In this document: positions 45,246 to 47,095 of the stretch, piece by piece | Layout of the letters: each line of letters opens with the position of its first letter | Numbering within the stretch: the first letter of the stretch is position 1 | Assembly (NCBI RefSeq): GCF_902833145.1 | Contig: NZ_CADFEN010000015.1 | Coordinates: 97,481-161,480 of the forward strand | DNA from: Burkholderia sp. BCC0506 | GTDB taxonomy: Bacteria > Pseudomonadota > Gammaproteobacteria > Burkholderiales > Burkholderiaceae | Direction: 5' to 3' | DNA length: 64,000 bases | Notes under the pieces: model-generated | Told to the model about the DNA's origin: nothing | Database searches by the model: none | The model's input: the letters and a program-made list of their open reading frames with translations, nothing else | Position numbers and translations under genes: made by a program

Positions 45246-45653
<408 letters not shown>

Positions 45654-45666
45654 GCCGTTCGAATGC

Positions 45667-45724: not shown

Positions 45725-46147
45725 TCAGGCGGCGACGATGTCGAACGAATGCGTGAGTTCGGCCGTCTTCGCGATCATGATCGACGCGGAGCAGTACTTG
45801 TCGTGCGACAGGTTGATCGCGCGCTCGACCGTGGCCGGGTTCAGGTTGCGCCCGGTGACCGTGAAGTGGAAATGCACCTTCGTGAACACCTTCGGATCTT
45901 CGCTCGCGCGCTCGGCCTTCAGCGTAACCGAGCAGCCGGTCACTTCCTGGCGGCTCTTCTTCAGGATCAGCACGACGTCATAGGCCGTGCAGCCGCCGGT
46001 GCCGAGCAGCACCATTTCCATCGGACGCGGCGCGAGGTTGTGGCCGCCGCCTTCCGGCGCGCCATCCATCGTGACGAGATGCCCGCTGCCGGTCTCGGCG
46101 GAAAACGCCATGCCGTCCTGGCCCATCCAGCTTACTTTGCATTCCAT
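45725..46147 (-). CDS. OsmC-family protein
   Basis: This 140-residue protein has the OsmC/Ohr fold. The two redox cysteines are in GTGGCTAYDVVLIL near residue 60 and DKYCSASIMI near residue 122. Family members reduce organic or fatty-acid hydroperoxides, or act as YhfA-type proteins; the sequence fits the YhfA-like group better than Ohr. The start MECKVSWMGQ at 46147 was chosen over an Arg-rich 14-residue extension. It is a single gene. Confidence 0.88.
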   Translation of the reverse strand: MECKVSWMGQDGMAFSAETGSGHLVTMDGAPEGGGHNLAPRPMEMVLLGTGGCTAYDVVLILKKSRQEVTGCSVTLKAERASEDPKVFTKVHFHFTVTGRNLNPATVERAINLSHDKYCSASIMIAKTAELTHSFDIVAA

Positions 46148-46427
46148 GCTTGCACTCCAGCGTTGCCTGATTCGAATTCGATCCGGCATTGTAGCCCGCG
46201 GCGCAACGGTCGGCTGATGCGCTGCACGACGTGCAACGCCGGTGCCGCGCGAGCGGGGTGGCGAGCGGCGATTTCCCTGCTTGATTTAGGGGTTTTGCTC
46301 TAGGAAGGGGCGTTTTGGAGTCGTGTCGGAAGAATCTATGTTGTTGAATTTAAACGGGAATTTGTTTTGGCGTGCTCGCCTGCTGGGATCCCATATCGTG
46401 GGATTGGATTTCGTAATGCAAATTTTC

Positions 46428-46456
46428 TTGTGAAGTCGGCGGGGTATTCGTATAAT
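46428..46456 (+). promoter_or_regulatory. Strong promoter of a candidate small RNA
   Basis: TTGTGA at 46428-46433 and a perfect TATAAT at 46451-46456 are spaced by exactly 17 bases. No start codon with a ribosome-binding site or recognisable reading frame follows before the terminator. Confidence 0.75.
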
Positions 46457-46462
46457 GAGATC

Positions 46463-46554
46463 CATTGGTTGTCGCGCTGCGGCAACCTCCGAATGTCTCC
46501 TCCACCCTCCTCCTAAGGTGGATTAAGCCCGAACCAGCCGTTCGGGCTTTTTTT
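46463..46554 (+). ncRNA. Candidate small regulatory RNA with anti-Shine-Dalgarno loop
   Basis: Transcription should start near 46463 and end at the T-run at 46554, giving about 92 bases with three hairpins. The first is 46467-46475 with 46479-46487 (9 bp, one G-U). The second is CCACC at 46502-46506 with GGTGG at 46517-46521, enclosing a loop that reads CTCCTCCTAA. The third is a terminator, AAGCCCGAAC at 46525-46534 with GTTCGGGCTT at 46540-46549, followed by T residues. Further C/U-rich tracts, ACCTCC and TCTCCTCC, lie between hairpins. These tracts are complementary to Shine-Dalgarno sequences. The layout recalls CUCCUCCC-loop RNAs of alphaproteobacteria such as CcsR, but I could not search for homologues. 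Confidence 0.7.
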
Positions 46555-46599
46555 CGTCCCATGCAAGCATCGGCAGCCGATTTGGGCGCGCCGACACCG

Positions 46600-46905
46600 T
46601 CATGCGGGCTGGCGCGCGCCTGGCTGCGACGTCGCGTCGGGCGGCATGCCGCGCGAGCCCGCGTCGGGCGCCGGCGCGGGGACGGCCGACGCATGGCCAT
46701 GGCCGCGTGCGCAGAAGTGGCGCACGCGTTCGCGCACCGCGCGCAGGCGCGCGACGCGGTCTTCGGCATGGGCGGTTCGGGCGTCGGCGATGCGCGCGTC
46801 GAGTGCGTCGAGCTTGGCTTCGCAGCCGGAGCGGGCGGCGACGGCGGGCGCCGCGGCGGCCAGCAAGGCGGCCGCGAGGCAGGGTGCAAGGCGTTGTTTC
46901 ATCAT
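46600..46905 (-). CDS. DUF1090-family small secreted protein
   Basis: This 101-residue protein has a signal peptide (cleavage near residue 24, after APAVAA). The conserved DUF1090 core follows, with GCEAKLDALDARIADART and RVARLRAVRERVRHFC and its cysteine pair (about residues 27-66). The C-terminal third is Pro/Gly/Ala-rich and not conserved. The E. coli relative YqjC is periplasmic and of unknown function. The gene lies between the candidate small RNA and the rplM promoter and is transcribed towards the RNA. Confidence 0.75.
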   Translation of the reverse strand: MMKQRLAPCLAAALLAAAAPAVAARSGCEAKLDALDARIADARTAHAEDRVARLRAVRERVRHFCARGHGHASAVPAPAPDAGSRGMPPDATSQPGARQPA

Positions 46906-47065
46906 GCTGGATTGTTGTTTTTCGGGTTCGGCCGGTCGGGCGCGGCAAGGTCATGTACCGCGCGTCGATGGGTGCTCCCGCCGGCGCTCGGTTCGCCTGG
47001 CTTGTCGGGGCACGATCGAATTTTGGCCCATTTCGGCCGCCGCGAACACGGGACGTGGATTCTCT

Positions 47066-47095
47066 TTGACCACGCAGCCGTATTTCCTTTATAAT
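47066..47095 (+). promoter_or_regulatory. Promoter and leader of rplM-rpsI
   Basis: TTGACC at 47066-47071 and a perfect TATAAT at 47090-47095 (18-base spacing) form a strong promoter. The leader of about 115 bases starts with a hairpin, TTTTCCG at 47103-47109 pairing with CGGAAAA at 47122-47128. It may take part in ribosomal-protein autoregulation, but I could not match it to a known leader. Confidence 0.8.

Follow-up and report, generated by a model that had tools for sequence, protein, structure and literature searches.

An NcS27 orthologue among the RF02278 small RNAs of Burkholderia sp. BCC0506 and a possible PhaR link of its sister genes

The window analyzed here is a 64,000-nucleotide stretch of DNA from Burkholderia sp. 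BCC0506. The locus of interest lies between an OsmC-family gene, its divergent neighbor (45725..46189, − strand; PF02566, 65.8 bits; detected at 50/50 orthologous loci), and a DUF1090-like gene, its convergent neighbor (46600..46905, − strand; PF06476, 23.9 bits), followed by rplM, which encodes ribosomal protein L13 (47217..47645, + strand; PF00572, 156.1 bits; 49/50 orthologous loci). The PF06476 score falls just under the curated cut-off of 24.4, with a relative of the gene present at 36/50 orthologous loci, and the sole orthologous locus without rplM is cut by the end of its contig. RNase P RNA (RF00010, 293.9 bits) was also matched in the window, at 45246-45657 on the + strand. Between the flanking genes, a −35 box (TTGTGA, 46428..46433, + strand) and a −10 box (TATAAT, 46451..46456, + strand) are separated by 17 bases and show mean conservation of 90% and 99%, respectively, across 50 orthologues.

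Downstream of these boxes lies a 92-nt RNA gene (46463..46554, + strand) identical over 92/92 bases to the NcS27 small RNA of B. cenocepacia NCTC13227. Its 5′ end at 46463 was placed from the 92-nt length of NcS27 in strain J2315 and from the spacing to the −10 box. RNA folding predicted hairpin 1 (46467..46487, + strand), hairpin 2 (46501..46522, + strand) with the loop CTCCTCCTAA at 46507-46516, and an intrinsic terminator (46525..46554, + strand) composed of a hairpin at 46525-46549 and a T-run at 46548-46554. The segment 46463-46560, folded as RNA, reached −38.9 kcal/mol versus a mean of −23.03 (sd 2.96) for 200 shuffles with dinucleotides kept (z −5.36), and 0/200 shuffles matched the native fold energy. 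The promoter TTGTGA-N17-TATAAT, three hairpins, terminator, and CU-rich tracts described in the initial annotation, which was made from the sequence alone, were thus recovered at the places given there, including the CU tract presented by the loop of the middle hairpin. That annotation had named two further anti-Shine-Dalgarno tracts. The first, TCTCCTCC (46496-46503), is unpaired but for its last three bases, which start the hairpin 2 stem; the second, ACCTCC (46485-46490), is only half free, because the 3′ arm of hairpin 1 takes up its first three bases. The 5′ tract as a whole, UGUCUCCUCCA (46494..46504, + strand), is near-invariant and complementary to GGAGGAGACA ribosome-binding sites.

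A mechanical open reading frame at 46465-47094 starts with TTG, reads through the terminator, and has no support as a gene; we rejected it, in agreement with the annotation's view that the stretch is noncoding. We likewise rejected a 5′ leader of a longer mRNA, a reading that would have counted against the annotation: the transcript has its own terminator, and the DUF1090-like gene that follows is oriented the opposite way.

The Rfam model RF02278, "Betaproteobacteria toxic small RNA," matched 46494-46555 on the + strand at 73.6 bits, over model positions 1-64 of 64 and above the gathering cut-off of 50 bits. This part (46494..46555) corresponds to the double-hairpin form and has the layout of the family, with two hairpins, the second of which is the terminator, and an unpaired 5′ UGUCUCC; hairpin 1 lies 5′ of it. 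Four RF02278 RNAs are reported in B. cenocepacia J2315: ncS27, ncS03, ncS05, and ncS62 (PMC4603805, PMC5688073). Of these, ncS27 is 92 nt long, has a mapped start and a 3′ end confirmed by RACE, carries a processing site that yields a shorter double-hairpin form, and lies between BCAL3348a and BCAL3349 in the same relative orientation as the window locus (PMC4603805, PMC5688073). From gene order and orientation, we infer that BCAL3348a and BCAL3349 are the DUF1090-like and osmC genes. The window locus shares with NcS27 the osmC/DUF1090-like and rplM flanks, the 92-nt length, the fold, and the additional 5′ hairpin 1. In the sequence comparison, for which NCTC13227 was used in place of J2315, a few bases differed in the promoter spacer, the stretch before the start, and the upstream boxes, and none differed in the transcribed part. 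The candidate small RNA of the initial annotation is therefore one already published, NcS27 of Burkholderia; even so, a real regulatory RNA can be picked out from bare sequence. We are highly confident that the locus is an NcS27 orthologue, one of several RF02278 genes, and that a small RNA blocking ribosome-binding sites explains it as a whole.

The annotation had further placed the RNA close to the CcsR and cuckoo type. CcsR, cuckoo, and ar14 RNAs of alphaproteobacteria carry anti-Shine-Dalgarno CCUCC motifs, and such exposed motifs are common to the window RNA as well. Together with a weak similarity to the ar14 model (22.3 bits), they are what speaks for an unrelated new small RNA that merely resembles the alphaproteobacterial ones. 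The ar14 score is far under its cut-off of 58.8, however, and we rejected membership in that family; the osmC/rplM synteny found order-wide argues against an unrelated RNA, and the betaproteobacterial RF02278 match and the full identity to the B. cenocepacia NcS27 sequence refute this notion, which we regard as extremely unlikely. Scores for two other models were also below their gathering values: NmsRb of Neisseria (RF02877; 26.7 bits versus 52) and anti-hemB of Burkholderia (25.6 bits versus 49.5).

The NcS27 locus was carried by all 65 Burkholderia genomes searched (65/65, own genome included), from which 50 orthologues were aligned, comprising 30 returned loci and the 20 more divergent of the remaining 35. 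Mean conservation, measured by the commonest base, was 97% for hairpin 1, 97% for the RF02278 5′ tract with hairpin 2, 95% for the terminator hairpin, and 100% for the T-run. The variable parts were the −35/−10 spacer (77%) and the six bases after the −10 box (72%), and the flanks reached 77% downstream and 58% far upstream. Promoter and stems are thus kept within the genus, as the annotation's reading led one to expect. Base pairs were counted in 21 hand-picked sequences among the 50, and two-sided changes occurred in 2/25 pairs. One pair of hairpin 1 changed from G-C to A-U in 4/21 sequences, with 4 broken cells across the 9 pairs of this hairpin, and one pair of the terminator hairpin was altered on both sides in 1/21. 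The hairpin 2 stem was invariant save for one gap and therefore provides no covariation evidence within the genus; of the three stems in which the annotation proposed to look for compensatory changes, hairpin 1 and the terminator show them in these sequences.

Beyond the genus, RF02278 matches at E up to 0.001 were found in 128/200 genomes of an order-wide sample (75 above the cut-off), in 103/369 of a class-wide sample (3 above the cut-off), and in 0/14 control genomes. Among 73 family members, the tract TGTCTCCTCCA (46494..46504) was identical in 63, and the inner stem of hairpin 2 showed changes on both sides. When the 73 family cores were cut to 34 bases and folded alone, the 5′ tract was unpaired in 64/73 and a CU-rich loop formed in 52/73, although some of the resulting stems are fold artefacts. 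Hairpin 1 is nearly constant within Burkholderia, and the sequence before the tract differs outside the genus, where a few loci (L088, L089) fold a similar small hairpin at this place. Neighboring genes were also shared: within the fetched stretch, osmC accompanied 23/30 RF02278 loci outside the genus and rplM 17/30. In one other family, from which four loci were fetched, two (L037 and L108) appear to be flanked by coq7 together with osmC and, at the opposite end, by ilvA, coq7 and ilvA being named by eye from reading frames. The S17 RNA of Bordetella adjoins coq7 (PMC11722255). Because coq7 stands beside S17 and beside these two loci, NcS27 and S17 may descend from one ancestral locus. As separate observations, a class member outside the order had three weak RF02278-like matches ∼150 bases apart (G327:C3:217943-218301), and in one family of the order, for which five genomes with matches were listed, three (G439, G486, and G607) had 8 to 9 RF02278 matches each.

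The BCC0506 genome itself contains four RF02278 genes above the cut-off and two weaker matches. The paralogues L001, L002, L004, and L005 share the UGUCUCCUCCA tract (with a different first base in L005), the hairpin, and the terminator but, unlike the window copy, lack hairpin 1. The J2315 RNAs ncS03, ncS05, and ncS62 are likewise short, at 57-67 nt versus 92 nt for NcS27 (PMC4603805, PMC5688073). A further RF02278-like match, L006 (G000:C5:517904-517956; 32.6 bits, below the cut-off), has a different 5′ tract, GACACCTCC, and is perhaps a diverged member of the family. The same genome harbors an ISL3-family insertion sequence (PF01610, 234.6 bits) with eight right ends (L121-L128; contig ends of G000:C4, C10, C13, C17, C18, C20, and C22). 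Seven of the eight have flanks; all seven are no more than two bases away from an A- or T-run, and five follow a terminator-like hairpin pointing at the element. A hairpin with a T-run likewise precedes the single left end seen. RF02278 matches account for two of the targets (L004 and L005), one of them below the cut-off. The element thus seems to insert preferentially at the T-run of intrinsic terminators, and none of the papers listed by a literature search was evidently on such a preference.

Experiments on orthologues and homologues of the window RNA have addressed transcription, processing, growth effect, and direct repression of one target (PMC4603805, PMC5688073, PMC11722255). To these, our analysis adds sequence, predicted fold, conservation, family membership, and synteny, and we infer all function in Burkholderia sp. 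BCC0506 from the orthologues and homologues. In the mechanism we propose, a sigma-70-type promoter would give rise to the 92-nt RNA, and cleavage past hairpin 1 would leave a short form of ∼60 nt in which an unpaired 5′ UGUCUCCUCCA tract precedes a hairpin whose loop is CU-rich and then a terminator ending in a U-tail. These CU tracts would pair with the Shine-Dalgarno sequence and adjoining bases of selected mRNAs and block their translation, with Hfq probably assisting the pairing. As growth slows, amino acids and sugars are predicted to be taken up and broken down less.

Published data on both RNAs bear on this mechanism. Predicted NcS27 targets center on ribosome-binding sites, and occlusion of these sites has been proposed (PMC4603805, PMC5688073, PMC10987360). 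In Bordetella, RNase E yields the short form of S17 and Hfq plays a part; without S17, 92 genes (91 as given elsewhere in the paper) go up, 70 of the rising genes have complementary sites near the ribosome-binding site, and S17 (S17S) represses one target mRNA directly in a reporter assay (PMC11722255). The annotation's reading of an independently transcribed RNA with exposed anti-Shine-Dalgarno tracts is supported, and the RNA probably represses several mRNAs. In the BCC0506 genome, the pattern GGAGGAGACA-N1-8-ATG gave 7 distinct sites (8 rows, two of which are alternative ATGs of one site) versus 1 site for the reversed control pattern and 1 for a second control, GGAGGAGCAC. Judged by eye, the products look like two MFS transporters, a porin, an OmpW-like protein, a CoA transferase, an indolepyruvate-ferredoxin-oxidoreductase-like enzyme, and a LysR regulator. 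Apart from the LysR regulator, 6/7 look like transporters, outer-membrane proteins, or amino-/acyl-CoA-related enzymes, which agrees with the classes of target published. The corresponding pattern for the loop of hairpin 2, TTAGGAGGAGG-N1-10-ATG, had 0 matches in the same genome; the loop may therefore be less important than the 5′ tract.

Two other modes of action were weighed against repression of chosen mRNAs. The family was named for growth inhibition when introduced into E. coli, and overproduction of ncS27 slows planktonic growth while silencing accelerates it, with no significant effect of either change reported in biofilms (PMC4603805, PMC5688073); the inhibition of E. coli and the slower growth on overproduction speak for a general inhibitor of the ribosome. 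Yet the tracts are complementary to the Shine-Dalgarno sequence and so resemble the 3′ end of 16S rRNA, not its complement. Furthermore, NcS27, which is conserved in Burkholderiales and has a proposed role in metabolic shutdown once nutrients run out, alters growth on certain substrates and not others (PMC10987360). S17S is not similarly toxic, impairing E. coli growth modestly and only on entry into stationary phase (PMC11722255), so RF02278 members need not act alike. We consider a general ribosome inhibitor unlikely. A sponge or decoy for another RNA or for Hfq would fit the four to six genome copies, five of them with near-identical 5′ tracts, and the U-tail and the unpaired CU-rich stretches are features suited to Hfq binding. 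The direct repression of a target mRNA reporter by S17S and the matching sites near the ribosome-binding sites of 70 S17-responsive genes (PMC11722255) argue against such a role, which we judge very improbable. Repression of selected mRNAs at the ribosome-binding site remains the preferred reading.

Upstream of the NcS27 promoter, Burkholderia orthologues carry two boxes, A and B, with box A 20 nt 5′ of box B. Box A is of the ATTTCGCATTATGG type (46388..46401, + strand) and is divergent in the window copy, with the orthologues similar by eye; box B is of the ATTTCGYAATGCAA type (46408..46421, + strand) and is kept in the orthologues. Mean conservation over 46396-46427 was 86% versus 58% farther upstream (50 orthologues). 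Box B is a degenerate relative of the palindrome TGCRNYGCA, with the window form CGTAATGCA at 46412-46420. Taken together, the boxes (46388-46421) look like a putative regulator site.

The intact palindrome was frequent at sister genes. TGCRNYGCA lay within 150 bases upstream of 23/28 RF02278 loci outside the genus versus 13/494 background windows (L100 and L112, whose core was not parsed, were left out). Because the motif was first noticed in this set, it was fixed beforehand for a second set of 40 loci, taken by rank from the order-wide list with own-genome copies and one close tandem neighbor excluded, and was found in 14/40 versus 9/120 background windows. The p values for these comparisons are too small, since the loci include related genomes and, in the first set, second copies from seven genomes, none of which count as independent. 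In short-leader genes (e.g., L001, L095, L106, L110, L227, L255, and L262), the motif occupies the expected place of the −35 box, 33 to 35 bases ahead of the RNA. Among the own-genome paralogues, it occupies the −35 position in L001, is one base off in L002, and lies farther upstream in L004.

TGCRNYGCA fits the Sinorhizobium PhaR motif NYGCRNYGCRN, and PhaR represses the small RNA MmgR in that organism (PMC12542648, PMC8401924). In Cupriavidus, PhaR leaves its promoters for PHB granules (PMC9049629). The motif occurred within 350 bases before 25/28 phasin genes versus 17/196 background windows (28 of 30 loci used; L199 and L215 were dropped as short), in two or more copies at 19/25 of the phasin loci having it; the BCC0506 genome has two phasin genes, and one of them is preceded by it. 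A PhaR gene was present in 28/30 genomes, and the two genomes without it (G474 and G574) are among the five loci without a site. An additional hint of a connection to PHB comes from two weak RF02278 matches below the cut-off (39.4 bits at G616:C11:39345-39959 and 35.1 bits at G288:C1:2688307-2689018), each with a phasin domain encoded on its strand a few hundred bases upstream. Against control by PhaR, the motif was found in only 10/28 regions upstream of phaR (versus 10/196 background windows), precedes only one of the two BCC0506 phasin genes, and was less frequent in the second set of RF02278 loci than in the first. It also occurred upstream of osmC (10/23; 0/17 for rplM), a gene that can lie across the same intergenic region as the RNA, so part of the sites could act on osmC instead.

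Also against control by PhaR, the window copy itself has no intact TGCRNYGCA upstream, near its −35 box or elsewhere, and the motif is missing from 49/50 orthologues, the one exception having it at −57. Across the BCC0506 genome, TTGCRNYGCAVMA was not enriched (52 sites versus 49 for its reversed form as control). In Burkholderia, the loose motif YGCRNYGCR has no discriminating power, since it occurs at 50/50 orthologues and also in 551/1140 background windows, and hairpin 1 itself holds a match.

Earlier work bears on the regulation of these genes. Sass et al. 2017 reported that three of the four J2315 genes share an upstream motif, and stated as unknown what regulates accumulation of the RF02278 small RNAs (PMC5688073). 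PhaR is not named in the main text of that paper or in PMC4603805. For the S17 promoter, Sim et al. 2024 postulated repression in one mode, by a repressor left unnamed (PMC11722255). A link between PhaR and RF02278 RNAs seems unpublished within the literature searched, in which no paper, most of them judged by their listing, evidently joined the two. We tentatively propose, at slightly less than even confidence, that the RF02278 anti-Shine-Dalgarno RNAs across much of Burkholderiales belong to the PhaR regulon and act as a brake under carbon surplus. With a PhaR operator overlapping or adjoining the −35 box, the small RNAs would be freed during carbon storage and would then shut off nutrient uptake; in Burkholderia, the sister gene L001 would retain the site largely lost from the NcS27 copy. 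PhaR would also be a candidate for the repressor postulated at the S17 promoter, whose −35 box is TTGCAT. This possible PHB link of the sister genes is the main interest of the locus: if true, a PHB-sensing operator would bear on the open regulation of these small RNAs and of the S17 promoter.

These RNAs can be set beside several known systems. Control of the sister genes by PhaR, if true, would resemble that of the PhaR-repressed small RNA MmgR of Sinorhizobium (PMC12542648, PMC8401924). NmsR RNAs of Neisseria (RF02877) have similar CU-rich tracts and overall layout, with a model score below gathering. With ar14, CcsR, and cuckoo RNAs, compared through the ar14 model of the Rfam library, the CCUCC motifs are common but the lineage is different. 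A counterpart outside the genus is S17 of Bordetella pertussis. S17 differs in its 190-nt precursor, its glycosyltransferase and coq7 neighbors, and its lack of similar toxicity in E. coli (PMC11722255). However, its 5′ region and double hairpin closely resemble those of NcS27, its long form is cut as that of NcS27 is (by RNase E for S17), and it represses targets at the ribosome-binding site (PMC11722255).
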